From a virus: a stretch of 29,985 bases of DNA. The position numbers and the translations under genes were made by a program. Below are positions 20-29,647 of this stretch, piece by piece. How positions within the stretch are numbered: the first letter of the stretch is position 1; every line of letters begins with the position of its first letter. Under the pieces are notes generated by a model. The model did not search any database. It was not told the DNA's origin and saw only the letters and a list, made by a program, of their open reading frames with translations. The stretch spans positions 1-29,985 of IMG/VR virus record IMGVR_UViG_3300002052_000039; one strand, 5' to 3'.

Positions 20-57
20 CGGTGCCTCTTTAACGTGGGGCACCGTTTGGGTTTTAT
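20..57 (+). terminator. Probable rho-independent terminator
   Basis: A 7-bp perfect stem (CGGTGCC at 20-26 with GGCACCG at 39-45) is followed by a T-rich stretch (TTTGGGTTTTATT). The interrupted T run makes it an imperfect but plausible intrinsic terminator for a gene lying upstream of the window. The next gene starts at 92, so some read-through is likely. Confidence 0.6.
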
Positions 58-91: not shown

Positions 92-280
92 ATGGTACAA
101 TTAACAGTAGATGAGGCTTTGAAGAATATTGATATTATTGTTGCTAATACCAGAATGAATCGGCAAGAACACGATGCGTTGCGGCAGTCAGTAATGTTGG
201 TTGCAAACAGATGTAAGCGAGCAGATGATTTGGAAAAAGAAAAACAGGCTGGAAAAGAAGCAAAGAAAGAGGTTGAGTAA
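92..280 (+). CDS. Small charged protein of unknown function
   Basis: A 62-residue protein of unknown function. The ATG at 92 is preferred over the in-frame GTG at 77 because GGAGG (79-83) sits 8 bases before the ATG and would lie inside the gene if the GTG were used. The sequence is mostly alpha-helical in character, and the last third is rich in Lys, Glu and Ala (KEKQAGKEAKKEVE), suggesting a soluble helix or coiled coil. No signal peptide or membrane segment is seen. Its stop codon overlaps the next start (TAATG), so translation of the two is probably coupled. It lies among virion genes and could be a small structural or scaffolding-type accessory, but nothing in the sequence proves this. 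Confidence 0.7.
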   Translation: MVQLTVDEALKNIDIIVANTRMNRQEHDALRQSVMLVANRCKRADDLEKEKQAGKEAKKEVE

Positions 281-393
281 TGGCGATAGATTATGATAAT
301 TTAGTTCCTAATTATACAATTGAAACAGCACTTCTAAATGGTGATATTGACGACATGACGACACAATGCGTAATGAAGTGTTTATCCGTTTGA
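280..393 (+). CDS. Very short ORF coupled to its neighbours
   Basis: A 37-residue reading frame that starts in a TAATG overlap with the gene before and runs 28 bases into the next gene in another frame. The peptide begins MAIDYDNLVPNYTIE and is acidic. No family is recognised. The tight start overlap supports translation. It may be a separate micro-protein, a coupling ORF that feeds ribosomes into the PAS gene, or the true N-terminus of the PAS protein joined by a -1 shift between 351 and 393, the stretch open in both frames. I see no canonical slippery heptamer there. Confidence 0.45.
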   Translation: MAIDYDNLVPNYTIETALLNGDIDDMTTQCVMKCLSV

Positions 394-731
394 TGATAGT
401 TATTCAAGCGATGGTAAACCAAAAGCCAGTTTTAGTGACTACTACAGAACCTAATAGAGTTGTGCTTGGAGCAAATCAAGAATTTGTTGATTATTTGGGA
501 TATTCAGTTGAGGAATTAAAAGAGCTATCAGGTGAAGTTATTTTTGATGAACGTGACCAGGAAATGATACAAGCAATTGGGGAAAATAATTTAAGTGGCC
601 CATATATTGTTCGTATAGTGAAGAAAAACACAAACAAAAAATTCGTCAAAGTTCAAAGTCTTTCTATTAACGCTGATACTATTGGGTGGAGATTTATAAT
701 ATTCACTGAAGTAGATGTATCTCTTGGTTAA
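366..731 (+). CDS. PAS-domain protein
   Basis: A 121-residue protein that is almost entirely one PAS-like sensor fold. Residues 32-54 (VLGANQEFVDYLGYSVEELK and flanking) match the typical 'N-x-x-F-x-x-x-x-G-Y-s-x-E-E-L' helix-strand signature, and residues about 83-117 form the closing strands (RIVKKN, KFVKVQSLSI, WRFIIFTEVD). There is no kinase, cyclase or DNA-binding partner domain. PAS domains normally bind small ligands or cofactors, or mediate protein contacts; no cofactor-binding residue can be assigned by eye. The gene sits between small virion-region genes and the head-tail adaptor gene in the same direction, which is an odd place for a sensor domain. The start at 366 has no strong ribosome site and probably relies on coupling with the preceding ORF. 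Fold assignment is fairly sure; role is unknown. Confidence 0.65.
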   Translation: MRNEVFIRLMIVIQAMVNQKPVLVTTTEPNRVVLGANQEFVDYLGYSVEELKELSGEVIFDERDQEMIQAIGENNLSGPYIVRIVKKNTNKKFVKVQSLSINADTIGWRFIIFTEVDVSLG

Positions 732-753: not shown

Positions 754-2031
754 ATGGCAGAATCAACTTCTAATTATAGTTTCTATGATTTAATACTTCG
801 AGTGGCTGAAGCGGCTGGTGTGGCTTATTATGGCAACGCTGGCAGTGAAAGAGCCTCCATCCCAATTGATGCACACGATTTAGCCAAATGTCGGCGATGT
901 GTTAATGATGGTATCAAGCAATTTATCTCCGATGCTCCGCCGACTGGTTGGCGTTGGATGAACCGTATAATGCAAGTGACATTTGGCACAGTTGAAACTA
1001 CAGGTACAGTTGATAGCGGTGATGCCACATCTTTAATTGATGCTACTTTAGCCGATACTTATGATACTGATGATGAGATTGTCGGTTATTATGTATATGA
1101 CCAGACACAAGAAATTTATGCTGCAATAACAGCATATACGGCTGCAACTGGTGATATTACAGTAGCAGCTTGGTTGGATTATAATGGCGATTCAAGTAGC
1201 CTGACACCATCAGCGGGTGATGCTTTTTCAATCACCGATGTTTTAACAGTCAATGGCGACAAACACCGATACCCATTATCACAAGATTTTATGGGTGAAT
1301 ATACTGGCAAAATTACTTATGCCAGAGATTCAGGTCGGGGACATATTATTGACTGGGACAGTGAAGGCTTTGTCCGATTTCAGGGTGAAGTATCTCTTAC
1401 TTCCGGCTATCCAACTCACGCAGCAGTTCGTCCCTGGGGCACACGGCGGTGGGAATTAGTTGTTGACCCATCACCATCTGCCGCCGATACAGTGGAATTT
1501 CCGTATAAAATCGGTTTTGATAAATTGCGAATCGAGGGCGGCATTGCAACGGCGGCGGCAGCAACATCAATCACTATCGGAGCGTTGGCAAATCTTTATC
1601 CCGATGATTATTTCGTTGGCTGGATTGGTTATATATCAGCCGGAACAGGTCGAGGCAGCTACGCAGTGATAACAGATTACACCGGTAATTCAGGTAAATT
1701 TGATGTGGCCGATTGGTTAAAATCAACAGGTGCGGCTGGTGGAATTGATCCTGTTGCAAACAGTAGTGCTTATTTTGAGCCAGTTGCTAATAAACATCCC
1801 GCTGGTATGCAGTTTGATATGGCAATTATGTCAGCCTGTTTAATGCAGGCCGAATTGCAATTTGAAAGTTTGCAGCTTGATTATTCACCATCACAAAAAT
1901 ATATGGAGCGGGATTTACCGGCTGCGTATCGAATTGATGCTGGTTCAGCACCGAGAAAGTTGGGAATTATGCAACCCGGATGGAGGAAAGTAGTACATAG
2001 AAGAACATGGACAGATGTGGAGTATGAATAA
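754..2031 (+). CDS. Putative head-tail adaptor / tail tube protein
   Basis: A 425-residue protein. ATG at 754 is chosen over the adjacent TTG at 751 because AAGAAGG (740-746) is then 7 bases away. The N-terminus (residues 8-70) has the helical pattern seen in podovirus adaptor proteins, with a 'LAKCRRCVNDGIKQFI' helix followed by a Trp-rich turn (GWRWMNR). The C-terminus (345-390) is again helical. Two inserted beta modules, residues about 84-141 and 263-323, resemble each other. By family resemblance it would sit under the portal and connect head to tail. The family call rests on pattern and on position just before the tail nozzle gene, so it should be taken as probable rather than certain. 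An unusual feature is the repeated module, which may decorate the outside of the connector. Confidence 0.6.
   Translation: MAESTSNYSFYDLILRVAEAAGVAYYGNAGSERASIPIDAHDLAKCRRCVNDGIKQFISDAPPTGWRWMNRIMQVTFGTVETTGTVDSGDATSLIDATLADTYDTDDEIVGYYVYDQTQEIYAAITAYTAATGDITVAAWLDYNGDSSSLTPSAGDAFSITDVLTVNGDKHRYPLSQDFMGEYTGKITYARDSGRGHIIDWDSEGFVRFQGEVSLTSGYPTHAAVRPWGTRRWELVVDPSPSAADTVEFPYKIGFDKLRIEGGIATAAAATSITIGALANLYPDDYFVGWIGYISAGTGRGSYAVITDYTGNSGKFDVADWLKSTGAAGGIDPVANSSAYFEPVANKHPAGMQFDMAIMSACLMQAELQFESLQLDYSPSQKYMERDLPAAYRIDAGSAPRKLGIMQPGWRKVVHRRTWTDVEYE
1003..1176 (+). repeat. Adaptor beta module, copy 1
   Basis: Encodes residues about 84-141 of the adaptor. Shares with copy 2 the pattern 'ATS-I/L ... 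ALA(D/N)-x-Y-x-x-DD ... VG ... A-I-T-x-YT-x-x-x-G ... V-A-x-WL'. The similarity is at protein level; the DNA has diverged. Confidence 0.6.
1540..1722 (+). repeat. Adaptor beta module, copy 2
   Basis: Encodes residues about 263-323 of the adaptor and matches copy 1 (for example YAVITDYTGNSG against YAAITAYTAATG, and VADWL against VAAWL). Such modules recur in many phage tail proteins. Confidence 0.6.
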
Positions 2032-3245: not shown

Positions 3246-5375
3246 ATGGCGACAGTTGTTGATTCATATACTACAGGAATGGATTCTGTGGATGGTATTT
3301 GTGGGGCACTTAATTTAAGAGCACAAACATTTACAGCAAGTCAATCTTATACAATAAATTCTGTTATTTTGAAACTCTATAGATTGGGCACTCCTGGTAC
3401 TTTAACAGTTCGATTAACTACTGTTGATGAATCTACGCCAGTTGAACCAGTTATAGGAAACGTTTTAGCAACTGGCACTTTTAATGCAAATACTGTTACT
3501 GCAGATAGTGCAGGTGAAGAATATACCATAACTTTTACAACATCGGCTGCTCTTACTTCTGGTACGCAATATGCTATTGTATGTGATTGCAGGGATGCGA
3601 GTACTGATTATTGTTATTGGAAAAAAGATACAGCGGGGGCAACATACGCTGGAGGTACGGCAGGCAGTTCGGGTGATTCTGGTTCTAATTGGACAATGTA
3701 CACTGCCACTGATTACTATTTCAAAACAACCAGTAGTAGTGGGGGTTCAGCAAGTGCCCCAGTTGATAAACGCTTTTCAAAACAACTGATTACGGCTTGC
3801 AATAATGAAATCTGGTATGAATCAACATCGGGAACGATGTCTGTACTTTCAGACGCAAGTGACGATATTGACACAACTGCCCCATTGCAGATGTTTGAAT
3901 TATATGAAAAAGTTTTTGTTGTAAACGGCACAAATCTCAAAGTCGCAGATTTTGGCAATACAAAAATTACTACTGCCGATATTAAACCAGAGGGTAAAGT
4001 TATTCCGATTCATGGTGATGTTTTAACATCTTCGGGCGGGGGACAAATGGTTGTTGATTATATTGATGCTTCTGATGGAGCTTGTAATGTTTATGGAAAG
4101 CGAATTACATCAACAACTTTTGCTGATACAGAAACAGTAACAGGTACAAATGCAAATGGAGATATTTCGTTTACATTAAATGCTGATGAAGATGCACCGC
4201 CACACTGGTATGATTGGACAGTTTATGCTGGTAGTGCAACCTTCGGTATAATGCCAACACAAGCAACATTAGGTTGTCCCTGGCGAGGTCGAGCTTGTTT
4301 ATCGGGGGATGAAGATTATCCACATCAAGGTTATCAATCCCGTCAAGAAAATCCTTGGGACTGGAATTATGTTTCTGCCGATGTTCAATCACCAATTGCT
4401 TTTGGTGGTGACCCATCAATACCGGGGCAAGTTGGTGACATTATAGTTGCTCAAATTCCATTTGATCGTGACCATTTAATTTATGGCGGGGCAAGTTCAT
4501 TATGGGTTTTGTCGGGTGATGCGGCGGAAGGTGGAACATTAAATAGTTTTTATGATGAAGGTGGAATTCTTGGAGCTTTGGCTTGGTGTAAAGATAATCG
4601 GAATAATTTATATATAATGTCAACTGTTGGCTTGTTAAAAATCCCACAAGGTTTCGGCCCGCCTGAAAATTTAACTGAGTTTATTTATCCCGATTTTATA
4701 GAAGATTTAGCTTACAACAGTTCAACATATCGAATTGTAATGGGATATGACAGAAAACGGAATGGAATAAAAATTACCAGAGTAACATTAGCATCGGGAG
4801 CAAACACCGGCTGGTGGTGGGATTTAAAAGCTAAAGCACTATTTCCAGAATCTTACGCTTCTACAGAACATGGCATATTTTCGATGTTTCATTATGAAGC
4901 AGTTGACCCTAATTACAACTGTTTGCTACTGGGTTGCAATAATGGTTATATCTACTACGAAAATGGTGATGCAACTGATGATACTCTTGCCGATGATACT
5001 GCCCAGGCAATTGATAGTTATATAACTTTCGGCCCGATTAAATTGGGAGAAGAAAATCGGGAAGGAAAAGTTAATTCATTAGTTGGAATAACTGCTGGGG
5101 GTGGTGCAAATGGAAGTGAGACTGATTCTGATAATGTAACATTTAAGATTTGGACTGAATTATCGGCTGACAAAATTAGTGAAAGATTTAGCACTAATTC
5201 AAATCAAAAAGTATCAGGAACAATTAAAGCCCCCGGACGTTGGCGGGGGAATCAATTTAGGCGGTCGATTCGGGGGATGTTTGCAGGAATTAGGATTGGA
5301 AATAATACAGAGGGAGAAATTTGGGGTTTAGAAAGACTTTTATTGGGAATGAAAAGAGCAGGAAGGATGAAATAA
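3246..5375 (+). CDS. Tail nozzle (tail tubular protein B-like) beta-propeller, with an inserted beta-sandwich
   Basis: A 709-residue beta-rich protein, the main body of the tail nozzle at the tip of a short tail. Residues 1-162 are a separate module of the 'choice-of-anchor' beta-sandwich type (QTFTASQSYTINSVILKLYR, GTPGTLTVRL, SGTQYAIV), ended by a Ser/Gly/Ala linker (163-171). From residue 172 (PVDKRFSKQLITACN) the normal nozzle body begins, with propeller-like strands (MFELYEKVFVVNGTNLKVADF, IYGGASSLWVLSGD, NNLYIMSTVGLLKIP) and a basic C-terminus. The usual nozzle N-terminus is encoded by 3029-3244 in another frame, so the module appears to have been inserted at the joint, and the frame break sits exactly there. 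The ribosome site is weak (GGTGG, 6 bases away), which fits coupled restart. The module could bind a host surface sugar. Confidence 0.65.
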   Translation: MATVVDSYTTGMDSVDGICGALNLRAQTFTASQSYTINSVILKLYRLGTPGTLTVRLTTVDESTPVEPVIGNVLATGTFNANTVTADSAGEEYTITFTTSAALTSGTQYAIVCDCRDASTDYCYWKKDTAGATYAGGTAGSSGDSGSNWTMYTATDYYFKTTSSSGGSASAPVDKRFSKQLITACNNEIWYESTSGTMSVLSDASDDIDTTAPLQMFELYEKVFVVNGTNLKVADFGNTKITTADIKPEGKVIPIHGDVLTSSGGGQMVVDYIDASDGACNVYGKRITSTTFADTETVTGTNANGDISFTLNADEDAPPHWYDWTVYAGSATFGIMPTQATLGCPWRGRACLSGDEDYPHQGYQSRQENPWDWNYVSADVQSPIAFGGDPSIPGQVGDIIVAQIPFDRDHLIYGGASSLWVLSGDAAEGGTLNSFYDEGGILGALAWCKDNRNNLYIMSTVGLLKIPQGFGPPENLTEFIYPDFIEDLAYNSSTYRIVMGYDRKRNGIKITRVTLASGANTGWWWDLKAKALFPESYASTEHGIFSMFHYEAVDPNYNCLLLGCNNGYIYYENGDATDDTLADDTAQAIDSYITFGPIKLGEENREGKVNSLVGITAGGGANGSETDSDNVTFKIWTELSADKISERFSTNSNQKVSGTIKAPGRWRGNQFRRSIRGMFAGIRIGNNTEGEIWGLERLLLGMKRAGRMK

Positions 5376-8752: not shown

Positions 8753-9739
8753 ATGCCGCTTTTAGAACCTCAACAAAGAGCCGGTTGGACTTATTACGGG
8801 GCTGGTGGACAATATGTGAAATCAACACCCCTGCCGATACAGCAGGAAGAAGATTTTAGTGCAGAGGGATTGTTGAATCAACAATACCAGCAACAATTAA
8901 ATCAAATTGAACAAGAAGTTAAGATTGCTCAACAAACTGCCACTTCTAATGCTCGCTATCAAATGGACACACTGAAACAAAAATATCAAATTGAACGGCG
9001 AGAAATAGAAAATATGCGGGGTCCAATTGACAAGAAACGGGAAAAACTCTTAGCTTTGAATACTAAATATGAACTGGCGGCAACAACAATTCGAGGAAAA
9101 ATTCAGCCTGATTTAGATGGTTTGCAAACGCAGCGGCAACAGGCAATACAGCAAATTCAAACTGGTTTACAGAATAAATTACAAGAATTGGCTATAATTG
9201 ATAAACTTGGACAAGAATGGTCTTTAAGTCCAGAAGCCGTGCAACAAAAAAAACTTCAGGCTATTGGTTACAATTTTCCGCTTTCAGCATTTAAACAGGC
9301 AGACCCGCAACAAAGACTAATGGAACTGACAATTTCAATTGCAGCATTGGAGGAGCAGGCAGAAACGGCTACGGGAGAAATACGGAAAAATGTTTTGTCG
9401 CAAATTGAAACATTGCATCAGGAAAGACGGGAAGTAATGTCTCGATTGATCCCTGATTTTTCTGCCCCGATTAAGAGTGCCTCAAAATTAACAGAAGCGA
9501 CAGCAGCAGCGGGAGCAGGAAGAAAGCCGGGAACATTAAATGAGGGGATGCTGCGGGAAAAACAAAAAGCATTAAAAATAGATACAACACAATTTAGAGG
9601 TTTTGCCCCGATATTTAAAGGTGAAGTAATACCAAAGAAAAAAGAAAAAACTATTGAACCAAAATATCAACAAAATAAAAAAACAGGTGAAACAAGAGTT
9701 TCCTACGATGGAGGTAAAACGTGGCAGGTGATTGGGTAG
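8753..9739 (+). CDS. Coiled-coil internal virion protein
   Basis: A 328-residue protein with a strong ribosome site (AAGGAG, 8743-8748). Residues about 40-165 are a long Gln-, Glu- and Lys-rich coiled coil (for example QQQLNQIEQEVKIAQQTA), a second helical stretch lies at 185-235, and the C-terminus ends in 'TRVSYDGGKTWQVIG', a short motif common at the end of phage virion proteins. There is no signal peptide or membrane segment. It overlaps the large ejection-type gene that follows by 19 bases, so the two are probably made in a fixed ratio. By position and composition it resembles the middle internal virion proteins of podoviruses, which form part of the DNA ejection apparatus. No specific family is recognised. 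Confidence 0.55.
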   Translation: MPLLEPQQRAGWTYYGAGGQYVKSTPLPIQQEEDFSAEGLLNQQYQQQLNQIEQEVKIAQQTATSNARYQMDTLKQKYQIERREIENMRGPIDKKREKLLALNTKYELAATTIRGKIQPDLDGLQTQRQQAIQQIQTGLQNKLQELAIIDKLGQEWSLSPEAVQQKKLQAIGYNFPLSAFKQADPQQRLMELTISIAALEEQAETATGEIRKNVLSQIETLHQERREVMSRLIPDFSAPIKSASKLTEATAAAGAGRKPGTLNEGMLREKQKALKIDTTQFRGFAPIFKGEVIPKKKEKTIEPKYQQNKKTGETRVSYDGGKTWQVIG

Positions 9740-12700
9740 ATGCAACTGAAGCAGAAATTTTTCCTGCCGATGATTGGGAAGATGTTTCAGAGAAAAATGT
9801 TTGGGTTGATATTGAACCTCGTGGCCGAATTGCAGAACTCGGCACTGCTACTGCCAGAGGGTTTTTGACACTCGGTGAAGCTGCTGTTGGTGCGGTTGAG
9901 AAAGTTACACCGTTGTTGAAGAAAACTCCGGGCTTTGGTTTGCCGATGCGGGGAATAGAACGGCTTACTGGAAAATCATTTGAAGAAGAACAGGCAGTAG
10001 TGCAGGAAAATATTGCAGCAGCCGCAGAAAAATTACCTCGAACTCGTGCTGGTCTTGGTGGATGGGCATTGAATGTAATCGGGGAAGGAGCACCATATTT
10101 GGCATCAACAGTTGCAAGCGGTGGTTATTCATTGGCATATCCGTTTATGATTGGTTTTGCAGTAGGAGGAGAATCGGCATATAAAGGGGCAATAGCTGAA
10201 GGAGCATCGGAGCGGCAGGCATTATTGGAATACGGGCTTGGGGGTTTAGCTGAAGCTGCTCTTGAAATGTATGGGGTTAGTAAAATACTAAAATTTAAAG
10301 AAGCGGGAAAAGCATCACTTAAAGGACTTGCCCGAAATCTTAGAGGAAAATTATGGAAACAAGCTGTGGGTGATTTGCGAAATATCACTGGCAATGCTTT
10401 AAAAAGTGCTCTTGTTGAAAGTTTAGAAGAAGCCAGTCAAGAGGGAGCAAGTTTAATAATTCCTGCCGCTTTGCGTGGTAGTGTTCCGAGAAGGGCGGAT
10501 GGTTCTGTAGCCTGGGGGTCAATGGTAAAACAAATTGGGGAGGCTGCTGCTGGTGGGGGTTTGCTTGGTTTCTTGGTGCCTGGTGGAATGAATGTGCCGC
10601 ACGGATTAGCTGAAATGGCGGCACCATCAGTTGAAAATATACAAACCGCTGCGAAAAGGATCAGGGAAAGTAATTTGGGGGATGTTGAAAAAGCAAGGTA
10701 TTTAGCAGAATTAGAAGAAATTACAGGGGAAACTCAAGACATTCCAGAATCAACTCGCCGCCGATTAGAAATTGCCAAAAAATTTGAAACTGAATTGATT
10801 GAATATGAAGCTAAACGACCAGAACTTCGGAAAGAAATGAAAGAAGCTATTCATAAAAAGTTTGGCAAGATTGAAGAAGTGCGGAAAGACCTTGAAACCA
10901 AAGACCCGATTATTGCCAGCCGGATTGCAAGAAAAGCAGCAGAAGGTTATGCCCGCTCGATGTTAACTGAGTTTCAGGAAAAATTTAGTCGGGATGAAAT
11001 TACAGAATTAGCTCAATCTATTCGAGAATCAAATTTGCCTACTGGTGATTATTTAACTTTGTCCCGATTTTTTGAAGATTTATTGGCTGATGTCCAACCG
11101 CATAAAAGCGGGATTAAAATGTTTGATAAATTTTTTGGAACAAACATTTTAGAAAAAGGTTTCAGAAAACGCCCGCTAACTAAAACTCAAAAACTATTAC
11201 AAATTGCCCGTGAACCATTTAACTTATTAAAAGCAATGGTCTGTTCCTGCGACTTTTCAGCCGGTGGAATTCAAGCTCTAATGGTCGCACCAAACCATCC
11301 TAAAATCTGGGGACAAGGTGTAGGCAAAGGCTATCGAGCATTTTTTAGTTCTGAATATACACAACTTGCCGAACTGGAAATGAAAACTGATCCCCGATAT
11401 AATTTAATTCAAAAATATGGCCCCAAACTAATTACAGAAATCGGGGGCGGAATAAAAGGTGAGGAATTATTTGTTAGCGAATTAGCCCATCGAATTCCCG
11501 GCATTGGTAAAATGGTGCAGGCTTCTGATAGAGCTTTTGTTACTACTCTAAATAATATCCGTTCAAATCTTTTTTATCAATGGTGCGAACAACATGGAGT
11601 TTCTGATACCATCATTCCACAAAACATTTCAATAGCAGAAATCAAAGAAGTATTAAACCATATTGGAAATCTTACTGGCCGGGCATTGGGAAAGCCCGGT
11701 GGTAAATTTGAAAAATATGCCCCAGAATTAGGTGCAATATTCTGGTCCCCCCGATTGTATCTGGCAACAGCCAGAAGTATGACAGATTGGGCGACCAAAT
11801 CCCACATTCGGAAAGAAGCTGCGGCTGATTTATTACAGGCGTTTGGAATCGGAATGTTGATTTTAGCATTGGCTGATTTGATTCCTGATGTTACTGTCGA
11901 ATTTGATCCCCGATCTTCAGATTTTGCAAAAATCAGAAAAGATAATGCCCGTATTACATTCTTTGGTCAACATACGCAAATGATGCGAGTTGTGGCACAA
12001 ATGGTATTACAGCAGAAAAAAGCCACAGCTACAGGGAGGATTTACCATAAAGACTGGCTGGATACTGCCCTGCGATTTATGCGGGGTAAACTAAGTCCGA
12101 CAGCAACAATCCCGATTGATGTTGCAACCGGTACAACTTTTCTTGGTAAAAAAATGCGGTGGGAACCGGAGTTTATGGAGGAGTATGTTGTTGAAAAAAT
12201 CGCTCCGATGTTTTTGCAAGATGTAGCTGATGCTGTTAGATACCAGGGAGTAGGAACAGCCTTGTGGACTTCACCATTAGCTATTCATGGAATCGGAGCA
12301 CAGATTTATGAGCCAACTGCGGGCAGTGAATCGGCAAGAATTAAAAATCATTATGCCCATCAAATGTACGGCGTTGATTGGGATGAACTTGGCCCGATGG
12401 TTCAGAAGGCAATTAAATTAACCCGACCGGCAATTGAAGCACAGGAAAGAAAAGCCAGGATGGAGCGGGAGAATTTTGATTTTGCAAAGGAAATGTTTGA
12501 GGAACAGAATGAAGCTGCAAGGCGGGTTTACAAAAGTTTGCCCAAAGACGTGCAAAAAGAATTTGATAGGGTTGGAGCGGAAGTAAAAGATTTAAGTCGG
12601 CGGATTGGTTCTAACTGGTATTTAAATCAGGGACGATATAAGCAATACGAAGAAGGTTTGAAGAAATTATTGAAACGGGTTGTGGTTCCACAAGTTAGGA

Positions 12701-12831
12701 TGTCGGGATGGAATAAATTAGATGAAAATACACAGCGGGAAATTTTGAATGCTTTAGTTGACCAATGCAGAAAGCATGTGCGGCAGCAAATAATTTTGAC
12801 AGCCAATATTGAGGATGTAATGAGAAAATGA
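9721..12831 (+). CDS. Large ejection-type virion protein with LPD38-like domain
   Basis: A 1036-residue protein starting at GTG 9721, supported by GGAGG at 9710-9714. The N-terminal third has Ala/Gly-rich hydrophobic stretches (about residues 124-170, YSLAYPFMIGFAVGG) that could contact membrane. Residues about 315-440 are charged helices. Residues about 665-810 match the pattern of the large polyvalent protein domain LPD38: 'FWSPRLYLA', then a hydrophobic helix (GIGMLILALADLI), 'VEFDPRSSDFAKIR', and 'RGKLSPTA'. The C-terminal 200 residues are again charged helix. No lytic transglycosylase active-site pattern is seen, unlike T7 gp16. It is expected to be packaged in the head and ejected ahead of the DNA. 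The LPD38 match is good by eye; the ejection role rests on size, position and hydrophobic segments. Confidence 0.65.
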   Translation: MAGDWVDATEAEIFPADDWEDVSEKNVWVDIEPRGRIAELGTATARGFLTLGEAAVGAVEKVTPLLKKTPGFGLPMRGIERLTGKSFEEEQAVVQENIAAAAEKLPRTRAGLGGWALNVIGEGAPYLASTVASGGYSLAYPFMIGFAVGGESAYKGAIAEGASERQALLEYGLGGLAEAALEMYGVSKILKFKEAGKASLKGLARNLRGKLWKQAVGDLRNITGNALKSALVESLEEASQEGASLIIPAALRGSVPRRADGSVAWGSMVKQIGEAAAGGGLLGFLVPGGMNVPHGLAEMAAPSVENIQTAAKRIRESNLGDVEKARYLAELEEITGETQDIPESTRRRLEIAKKFETELIEYEAKRPELRKEMKEAIHKKFGKIEEVRKDLETKDPIIASRIARKAAEGYARSMLTEFQEKFSRDEITELAQSIRESNLPTGDYLTLSRFFEDLLADVQPHKSGIKMFDKFFGTNILEKGFRKRPLTKTQKLLQIAREPFNLLKAMVCSCDFSAGGIQALMVAPNHPKIWGQGVGKGYRAFFSSEYTQLAELEMKTDPRYNLIQKYGPKLITEIGGGIKGEELFVSELAHRIPGIGKMVQASDRAFVTTLNNIRSNLFYQWCEQHGVSDTIIPQNISIAEIKEVLNHIGNLTGRALGKPGGKFEKYAPELGAIFWSPRLYLATARSMTDWATKSHIRKEAAADLLQAFGIGMLILALADLIPDVTVEFDPRSSDFAKIRKDNARITFFGQHTQMMRVVAQMVLQQKKATATGRIYHKDWLDTALRFMRGKLSPTATIPIDVATGTTFLGKKMRWEPEFMEEYVVEKIAPMFLQDVADAVRYQGVGTALWTSPLAIHGIGAQIYEPTAGSESARIKNHYAHQMYGVDWDELGPMVQKAIKLTRPAIEAQERKARMERENFDFAKEMFEEQNEAARRVYKSLPKDVQKEFDRVGAEVKDLSRRIGSNWYLNQGRYKQYEEGLKKLLKRVVVPQVRMSGWNKLDENTQREILNALVDQCRKHVRQQIILTANIEDVMRK

Positions 12832-20321: not shown

Positions 20322-20622
20322 TATTTCCTCCAATTTTTTCAATTTCAATACTATTACATTTCGGGCACATATCTCGACCTGTTATTATTGAAAGTCCAGG
20401 CACATCAAAAGTATGCCCACAATTATTACATTTATAATCTCTCGGAATTAACCCTTGTTTTTTCTGTTCTTCCCTAATTAATTGCACCATTTTCTCATTC
20501 GCAACTCGATTGCAGACTTCTTGTTTTAGAACATCACCATGACAATGTTTTGTTTTTAGTCCAGAATTACAAGGACATAAACTATTCCGAGAAGGTAATT
20601 TATTTTTAGGCACAACTCCCAT
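20308..20622 (-). CDS. SEC-C and zinc-ribbon protein
   Basis: A 104-residue protein with two metal-binding parts. Residues 12-28 (RNSLCPCNSGLKTKHCHGD) are a SEC-C motif, a short zinc-binding segment first known from SecA. Residues 60-95 are a zinc ribbon (YKCNNCGHTFD and DMCPKCNS). The middle is helical. The start ATG 20622 has a good ribosome site (AAGGAG, 8 bases away) that lies inside the end of the HNH gene; the open frame further upstream is a shadow of that gene. A truncated copy of the same N-terminus lies on the other side of the HNH gene (21064-21162). The role is unknown; SEC-C proteins often act as protein-binding adaptors. Confidence 0.75.
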   Translation of the reverse strand: MGVVPKNKLPSRNSLCPCNSGLKTKHCHGDVLKQEVCNRVANEKMVQLIREEQKKQGLIPRDYKCNNCGHTFDVPGLSIITGRDMCPKCNSIEIEKIGGNNGES

Positions 20623-21064
20623 AGGTAAACTCCTTAAAGAATTTTTGTTCTGCTTTTTTACGAGTTGCAAGAGCATCTTTCTTTCTTTTAAAACGACCAA
20701 GATAGACTGATTTTCCATTTATTCCAATTATAGCCATCCATGCTTTTTTATGATAATACACCCCTTTAACACCTTTTCTGTTTTGAAGATTTTGTTGGTG
20801 AGTACATATTCTAAGATTAAACCGTCTATTATTTAATCCATTGTGATCAACATGGTCCCCCTGTCGTTTATCAAACCAACCAAGACCTAAAATTAAACGG
20901 TGCATACGCAAACATTTTTTATATTTAGGTGTAAAATAAATATCACAACAAGCATACCATGTATTTCGTTCCTTGTGTGCATACCATTTATATTGTGATA
21001 CCAACATATAATCTTCATCATCAACTAAAGCATATTTACCTTGTGTTAGTGGAATTCGCTTCAT
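20606..21064 (-). CDS. HNH homing endonuclease with AP2 DNA-binding domain
   Basis: A 152-residue free-standing homing endonuclease. Residues about 50-95 are an HNH domain: 'RMHRLILGL', 'GDHVDHNGLNNRRFNLR' (the HxDHxxxNNR-type core) and 'THQQNLQNR'. Residues 97-148 are an AP2-type DNA-binding domain: 'GVKGVYYHKKAWMAIIGING' then 'YLGRFKRKKDALATRKKAE'. It nicks or cuts DNA at a specific site and spreads its own gene by repair. The start is ATG 21064, with GGAGG about 10 bases before it and an overlap with the stop of the broken SEC-C frame (TGATG). The gene sits between two copies of the SEC-C N-terminus, so it appears to have inserted at that gene. No intron or intein boundaries are seen. Confidence 0.88.
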   Translation of the reverse strand: MKRIPLTQGKYALVDDEDYMLVSQYKWYAHKERNTWYACCDIYFTPKYKKCLRMHRLILGLGWFDKRQGDHVDHNGLNNRRFNLRICTHQQNLQNRKGVKGVYYHKKAWMAIIGINGKSVYLGRFKRKKDALATRKKAEQKFFKEFTYGSCA

Positions 21065-21162
21065 CAAAAAGAATCCTCCATATATTTGAATTTTAATCCT
21101 GAACCACAGGGACAAGGTGAGTTGCGGGGTGGTGACTTGTCGCCTTTAATTTGAACACCCAT
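21064..21162 (-). pseudogene. Truncated SEC-C protein interrupted by the HNH gene
   Basis: A 32-residue frame, MGVQIKGDKSPPRNSPCPCG and twelve more residues (SGLKFKYMEDSF). It carries the same opening and SEC-C motif as the intact protein at 20308-20622 (both begin MGV, then RNS-x-CPC-x-SGLK-x-K), but breaks off where the HNH gene begins. The DNA of the two copies differs at many positions, so this is not a fresh duplication. It is best read as the 5' remnant of the original gene, left when the endonuclease arrived with a replacement copy. Confidence 0.75.
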
Positions 21163-28723: not shown

Positions 28724-28778
28724 TTTTCCTCCGATTTTTTTTCAAAATTTCAAACAAATACCTCATTGTATTAATGGT
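28701..28778 (-). pseudogene. Remnant C-terminus of the diphosphohydrolase-like gene
   Basis: Just after the LAGLIDADG gene this strand reads T-INTMRYLFEILKKNRRK, which matches the end of the diphosphohydrolase-like protein upstream of it (IFNAMAYLYKIEYEKRNSK): N-x-M-x-YL-aromatic-x-I with a basic tail. An in-frame TGA comes directly before it. It looks like the original 3' end of that gene, displaced when the endonuclease inserted. The last 23 bases overlap the DUF1937 gene. Confidence 0.55.
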
Positions 28779-29193
28779 TCATCTTTTTTATCAGTTGATA
28801 AATTCCTTTTTTTGCTTCTATATCTCTTTTTGATATTTCTAAATACTCTAATGCCAATTTTGCTAATCGTTTTTTGGTTTTCAAAAATGGCATTATCCAT
28901 TGAAGAAACAGTTTGCATCTCTGATATTGTAGTATCCATCTATATGAAGTTTTCCATTTGGGATTTTTAGTTTTATGTATATAGAAATAACCACCAAAAG
29001 TACCCCAAAGCCATTTAACTACATTTTCATCAGTCATCTGTAATTGAATATCAAGAGTAAATCTATCATTTGGTCTATTGATGGATTTAGCATTTACTCT
29101 GCAAATTTTTATGCAACCCTCTCCGTCAAACAAACCAGCAACATAGCACAATATATCTTTTGACGGTTTAATTTTTACTATTTCTTTTTTCAT
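28771..29193 (-). CDS. LAGLIDADG homing endonuclease
   Basis: A 140-residue protein with one LAGLIDADG-type motif, 'YVAGLFDGEGCIKI' (about residues 17-30), including the acidic catalytic residue near its end. The rest fits the single-motif (homodimer) type: 'DIQLQMTDENVVKWLWGTFGG', 'YRWILQYQRCKLFLQWIMPFL' (read as helix-strand pairs) and a basic C-terminus. ATG 29193 is chosen because the frame upstream is a shadow of the preceding gene; there is no strong ribosome site, and the start lies 26 bases inside that gene's end. It would cut an endonuclease-free copy of the neighbouring gene and spread by repair. No intron or intein signs are visible. Confidence 0.85.
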   Translation of the reverse strand: MKKEIVKIKPSKDILCYVAGLFDGEGCIKICRVNAKSINRPNDRFTLDIQLQMTDENVVKWLWGTFGGYFYIHKTKNPKWKTSYRWILQYQRCKLFLQWIMPFLKTKKRLAKLALEYLEISKRDIEAKKGIYQLIKKMNH

Positions 29194-29647
29194 ATTCAAT
29201 TTTATAAAGATACGCCATTGCATTAAAAATAATTGCACATATACTATCTTCTAACTCATTTTCTGTTTTAATTTTACGATGCTGCAACCACCAATCTATA
29301 AAATGCCTACATGCGGATTTCATACATATATCAAAATGTTTTTCCCCAAACATATTTTGCCAATTATCAGAATCTCGCAATTGTCCATCTGATTGTGTGC
29401 GGTGTTTATGAAGATATTGAGCATATCGTTGTAAAACTATCGGGGAAAGAAATCCCTCATAATCAAGTTTTCCAATATCAGTATCCCGTGTAGCCCCAGA
29501 ATCAAATTGGCGGGTTTTTGGGTTGGGTTGTTTTGGTTGTTTTGATTGAAAATCCGCACAAGGTAAATTTGCTAATATAGAAACCTTACCTTTTAGACAT
29601 ATACACCCCATTCCTGAATAATTTTCACAATCAATGCACTCAGGCAT
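29168..29647 (-). CDS. dATP/dGTP diphosphohydrolase-like protein with zinc-type N-terminus
   Basis: A 159-residue protein. Residues 1-33 form a Cys cluster (CIDCENYSGMGCICL, then C30) that may bind zinc. Residues 45-155 match the phage family named dATP/dGTP diphosphohydrolase N-terminal (DUF5664): 'RQFDSGATRDTDIGKLDYEG', 'FLSPIVLQRYAQYLHKHR', 'GQLRDSDNWQ', 'ACRHFIDWWLQHR' and 'ICAIIFNAMAYLY'. Members are linked to removal of pyrophosphate from dGTP or dATP, in some phages as the first step toward 2-aminoadenine DNA. No purZ-like gene is in this window, so that pathway cannot be claimed. Its C-terminus has been replaced or copied by the LAGLIDADG gene that follows. Confidence 0.7.
   Translation of the reverse strand: MPECIDCENYSGMGCICLKGKVSILANLPCADFQSKQPKQPNPKTRQFDSGATRDTDIGKLDYEGFLSPIVLQRYAQYLHKHRTQSDGQLRDSDNWQNMFGEKHFDICMKSACRHFIDWWLQHRKIKTENELEDSICAIIFNAMAYLYKIEYEKRNSKN

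Follow-up and report, generated by a model that had tools for sequence, protein, structure and literature searches.

MopJ of Caulobacter crescentus, a protein made up of a single PAS domain, binds the kinase DivJ and alters the localisation of DivK and DivL (PMC4432633). In vibriophage VP882, the PAS domain of VqmA senses the host molecule DPO, and the protein, which also carries a DNA-binding domain, drives the lytic switch of this temperate phage (PMC8284805). The gene described here is located at 366-731 on the plus strand of the window, by which we mean the whole stretch of 29,985 nucleotides that was analysed (IMG/VR virus record IMGVR_UViG_3300002052_000039, positions 1 to 29,985). Like MopJ, its predicted product consists of one PAS domain without an output domain. 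Unlike MopJ, which is chromosomally encoded, 165 amino acids long and a member of PAS_5 (pfam07310), the phage protein belongs to PAS_9, and in a search with E-values up to 10 the PAS_5 model (PF07310) was not listed among its matches. MopJ is the closest functional counterpart known, but as the phage protein lies outside the Pfam family of MopJ, the parallel would extend to the working principle only. With VqmA it has in common that a PAS domain from host signalling is borne by a phage, whereas VqmA is equipped with a DNA-binding output and the PAS domain of the window stands alone in a late operon. VqmA is evidence that host PAS sensors are acquired by phages.

Other free-standing PAS folds are found among short LOV proteins (W619_1, PF5-LOV and DsLOV; about 130-170 amino acids), which are among the top fold matches of the phage protein. 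LOV proteins require a flavin-reactive cysteine, however, and this residue is absent here. Three proteins of uncultured Caudovirales annotated as 'PAS domain' (A0A6J5NY05, A0A6J5KZZ3 and A0A6J5QVN9) resemble the phage protein in being short and in having a PAS fold by structure comparison, but they are longer (169-205 amino acids) and share 11-15% identity with it. In a viral structure library, phage proteins annotated as PAS share the fold of our model at 11-17% identity. Phage PAS genes are therefore not unprecedented; phage-borne PAS domains are already known, and the present case is a cargo gene of a phage that encodes a familiar domain. In the open-access papers searched for PAS domains in connection with podoviruses or virions, no description of a lone PAS domain within a late exchange slot was encountered.

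Two proteins of Cellulophaga phages, phi18:3 gp090 and phi19:1 gp108, had been considered as potential precedents for PAS genes in late regions on the basis of their length and of names in a fold search. They were rejected, as neither matches a Pfam PAS model and a profile comparison of gp090 with the PAS protein gave no match. Two mutually related Cellulophaga phage genes (NC_021794, 39102-39620, and NC_021799, 54202-54924; phrog_10199 and phrog_31932) are located near late and lysis genes, and matching protein lengths suggest that they correspond to S0A2B2 and R9ZZL0, two fold hits of PAS-like type, but no PAS match was obtained for them at the sequence level. Neither gene of this pair is marked as detected by MS/MS in virions, unlike several genes of the same clusters.

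The open reading frame at 366-731 comprises 121 codons (112 amino acids if translated from ATG 393) and encodes an acidic protein of 13.8 kDa with a pI of about 5 that contains neither cysteine nor histidine. Residues 23-119 of the 121-amino-acid protein were aligned with the Pfam model PAS_9 at 28.6 bits (E = 1.8e-6), spanning profile positions 5-102 of 103, and the score, which amounted to 28.6-28.9 bits over repeat searches, is above the curated gathering cut-off of 27 bits. Three further Pfam PAS models match the protein below their respective cut-offs, and the same holds for TIGR00229 (NCBIfam, PAS S-box; E = 7e-4). When PF13426 was run against the whole record, a single match above the cut-off was obtained, at 432-722. 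No PAS match was obtained for any of eight controls (the reversed protein and seven shuffles) at E-values up to 10. The length of the open reading frame alone is weak evidence, with an equally long open run in 43 of 2000 shuffles of 92-753; codon use, in contrast, supports the PAS frame with +0.19 bits per codon and does not exceed -0.33 in any of the five others. No catalytic or DNA-binding output domain was found fused to the PAS domain. The original prediction of a single PAS domain with no output domain is borne out, given that PAS_9 exceeds its cut-off, the eight scrambled controls are clean and the alignment covers 23-119 of the 121 residues with no other domain. At the level of sequence, the product of 366-731 is thus confirmed as one complete PAS domain.

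Structure prediction with AlphaFold from the single sequence led to an unusable model (pLDDT 39). When an alignment of 19 PAS sequences was supplied, representing PAS domains of multi-PAS signalling proteins encoded at three bacterial loci (L158-L160), a model with pLDDT 78.8 and pTM 0.67 was obtained that displays the strand and helix order of PAS domains as well as an N-terminal helix; as the alignment itself is composed of PAS domains, the model is not independent evidence for the fold. All matches listed for this model in the PDB are PAS or LOV proteins (Foldseek E of about 1e-5; Z of 12-13 at 2-3 Å by VIA-align), and these comparisons lean on the PAS alignment as well. The sensory motif ANQxFxxYLGYSxEEL is retained in the PAS protein, as is the invariant Asp of the DIT motif (TEVDVSLG). 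The DIT-like DVS is at most 4 residues away from the C-terminus, and judging from its sequence the protein looks as if it had been cut from a sensor exactly at the end of the domain. At the position of the LOV motif GXNCRFLQ the protein reads GANQEFVDY, and the flavin-reactive Cys is missing. Without cysteine, chemistry of the LOV/PYP type is excluded, and without both histidine and cysteine the same is true for His/Cys haem ligation of the FixL or DosP type. Ligand binding is common among PAS domains.

Among recognisable sequences, the phage domain is closest to PAS domains within multi-PAS signalling proteins from Bacteroidetes and cyanobacteria, with about 40% identity over 47-58 residues, and derivation from bacterial sensory PAS proteins would be the best explanation for the phage domain. 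No relatives were detected in single-protein scans of viral contigs, genome contigs and annotated phages, nor in an alignment-based viral scan. PAS_9 was encountered in none of 49 other related virus records, many of them 40-54 kb long and some of them fragments, and it was present in 12 of 14 control genomes. Likewise, no PAS match outside the window was found among the small open reading frames (74 scanned) that occupy the corresponding position in relatives. A search for the same gene at this position in relatives, which had been proposed as a check, therefore turned out negative. Absence from one record is weak evidence; all of these absences together are telling and show that, as far as sequence searches can tell, the PAS gene is rare and optional in this virus group.

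In relatives, the late genes are arranged in the order terminase-like, portal, scaffold-like, presumed capsid, a protein of about 270 amino acids, a slot of small genes, presumed adaptor and nozzle-like. The portal is supported by a match to a PHROG portal family (7e-8), and the names capsid, adaptor and nozzle were assigned by gene order. In the window, the right border of the slot is formed by a conserved late gene at 754-2031 (+), a presumed head-tail adaptor by gene order only, whose product shows 84% amino acid identity to its counterpart in the relative L066 and 50-64% to those in other relatives. This product gave no significant match to Pfam, PHROGs or PDB sequences, so that the label 'head-tail adaptor' is unsupported by any family or PDB sequence match. 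With regard to the claim that the PAS gene lies between virion genes and a head-tail adaptor, gene order indeed places it there, but the name of the adaptor is positional. Further downstream, a presumed tail nozzle-like protein that is conserved in the group is encoded at 3246-5375 (+) and matches weakly a PHROG of unknown function. A search with the 754-2031 gene led to the locus L002 (64% over the first half of the gene); the presumed capsid gene of L002 retrieved 63 loci, the nozzle-like gene 40 and the alignment of the downstream gene 45.

The leader ahead of the slot contains a terminator-like hairpin at 20-45 (+), in which CGGTGCC...GGCACCG is followed by a T-rich stretch (fold z-score of -3.3 for 1-92). 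Positions 13-94 of this leader are identical in 80 of 81 positions to 1-82 of L066, and an exact search with the leader recovered the L066 contig only. Possible roles of the shared leader are those of a conserved terminator or processing site ahead of the tail genes, or of a recombination border. The DNA is AT-rich and contains numerous promoter-like matches. The first gene of the slot, at 92-280 (+), encodes a conserved protein of 62 amino acids and is preceded by the Shine-Dalgarno sequence GGAGG before ATG 92, although the ORF finder lists it from GTG 77. Compared with a profile of its family, in which the sequence itself is included, its product scores 86 bits; it has no confident Pfam or PHROG match. 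The family of about 60 amino acids, characterised by the motif EALxNxDxIVxxxxMxRQEHxALxxS, recurs ahead of the adaptor gene in many relatives (for example L032, L038, L039 and L062).

L066 is the nearest relative of the window, and its downstream late gene is 84% identical at the amino acid and 81% at the nucleotide level. In contrast, its slot is occupied by genes for 130 and 66 amino acids that are unrelated to the slot genes of the window. Identity between both sequences breaks off at the start codon of the first slot gene and returns at the start of the adaptor gene. Across the relatives, the slot contains members of two recurring families (the 62-aa type and one of 125 aa), small proteins of acidic character and genes that resemble endonuclease VII (4 of the 74 scanned slot ORFs), and the region is suggestive of a landing site for mobile genes. 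The family of about 125 amino acids (YPLRxN.S.WLR...GGEIHEEAI.RV) is represented in L066 (66-455), L007, L011, L017, L038, L059, L071, L073, L076, L102, L128, L129 and L130, and its L066 member has no match in Pfam or PHROGs. Endonuclease-VII-like genes between presumed capsid and adaptor were noted in L070, L122, L127 and L133 (loci named from sequences). As the slot of L066 differs and the PAS gene is absent from relatives, this gene would be optional cargo rather than a conserved part of head or neck. Its absence from a close relative between conserved borders identifies it, by comparison of sequences, as an optional cargo gene (moron).

Directly upstream of the PAS gene, an open reading frame for 37 amino acids is located at 280-393 (+), for which codon use is in frame over 280-365. 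Its start is coupled to the preceding gene via a TAATG overlap and its stop overlaps ATG 393 as TGATG (391-395); no Pfam or PHROG match was found for it. Whether the PAS gene starts at ATG 366 or at ATG 393 is uncertain, and no Shine-Dalgarno sequence precedes either codon. Across 366-392, the PAS frame has an advantage of about 7 bits in codon use, which argues for a start at 366, or for a -1 shift near 363-366, rather than for a start at 393. The identity of the PAS domain is unaffected by this choice because its core lies entirely downstream of 393. The upstream frame may be either a tiny gene that hands ribosomes to the PAS gene or the front of a gene that is split by an apparent frameshift near 363-366. 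It is unlikely, though worth weighing, that 280-393 and the PAS frame form one gene of about 150 amino acids whose parts are connected by a -1 frameshift near 363-366, be it programmed or accidental, in which case the protein would possess an N-terminal extension and would not be a lone PAS domain. Both segments are coding-like in their own frames with a switch near 363-366, and the predicted N-terminal helix could run on upstream, but a classical slippery heptamer was not seen, TGATG at 391-395 allows ordinary stop-start coupling, and the fused N-terminus matches neither the 62-aa small-gene family nor the 66-aa protein of L066. Such a single gene would concern the extent of the gene and is compatible with any functional reading. 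A likeness by eye of the joined 37-aa frame and PAS N-terminus to small proteins of L066 and L002 or to the 62-aa family was tested and found to be unsupported.

Regarding function, we tentatively favour, with a probability of roughly 45%, that the PAS gene is cargo of the late operon and that its product, a soluble single PAS domain, would serve PAS signalling proteins of the host as a partner or decoy. This reading is favoured by the PAS_9 match over its cut-off, by the retained sensory motifs and by the exchange of slot contents between conserved borders, and it is supported by the finding that a single-domain PAS protein can act on kinases (MopJ-DivJ). The protein would be made late, alongside the structural genes, and would pair via its N-terminal helix and the face of its sheet with the PAS domains that sensor kinases or cyclases of the host carry; alternatively, it might bind a small ligand used by those host proteins. 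As a result, host signalling would be kept in a condition favourable to the last phase of infection. Among the roles originally put forward, that of a late-expressed modulator of host signalling fits best and is more likely than that of a part of the virus particle. Two observations count against our explanation. The N-terminal helix, which according to the model is the likeliest pairing surface, sits in the part of the protein with the uncertain start, and no second occurrence of the PAS gene was found in the searched records, so that one copy provides no estimate of selection. It seems highly improbable that the single virus-made PAS domain, perhaps as a passenger of the particle that is delivered together with the DNA, hijacks host PAS sensor kinases by mixed pairing, which would amount to a takeover of two-component or cyclic-nucleotide signalling at the protein level. 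Should host signalling indeed be the target of the PAS protein, this would be a minimal example of a phage that influences sensor kinases by a sensor module alone, and the slot would be a place to seek other small host-modulating genes in a little-known virus group. As it stands, the PAS gene is one optional gene with a putative activity.

The gene might instead be a captured fragment of a host sensor that has no selected function and is being lost, which we consider rather unlikely. Its single occurrence, the lack of a Shine-Dalgarno sequence at 366 or 393 and the possible frameshift relative to the upstream frame would be in agreement with such a fate. However, the domain is complete from end to end, its frame is intact and its codon use is phage-like, and the low identity to any bacterial PAS domain found indicates that the capture does not look recent. 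Doubtful, too, is the idea that the phage itself employs the protein to sense a small molecule, with the ligand-bound PAS domain regulating a phage protein, for example so as to time late genes or lysis. In favour of it are the frequent binding of ligands by PAS domains and the sensing of host DPO by the PAS domain of VqmA from VP882 (PMC8284805), but a DNA-binding or catalytic domain is absent, and there is neither a recognisable partner gene in the slot nor a PAS-bearing partner elsewhere in the 30-kb record. The second role offered by the original prediction, that of a PAS fold put to new use in a structural plug or head protein, is improbable, and so is a part of the neck: a position between presumed capsid and presumed adaptor genes is common for virion parts, but a conserved role of this kind is disfavoured because L066, with a downstream late gene that is 84% identical, does without the PAS gene and has unrelated proteins in its slot, a PAS match outside the window occurs in 0 of 74 slot ORFs and 0 of 49 related records, and the sequence is near sensory PAS domains and not near any known connector.

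Elsewhere in the window, a late protein of 1036 amino acids is encoded at 9721-12831 (+) and matches weakly PHROGs of virion RNA polymerase (E = 6e-4) and of tape measure protein; it is probably an internal or ejected virion protein. Homing-endonuclease-like genes are present at 28771-29238 (-) and 20606-21115 (-), with LAGLIDADG_1 above and HNH/AP2 below the respective cut-off.
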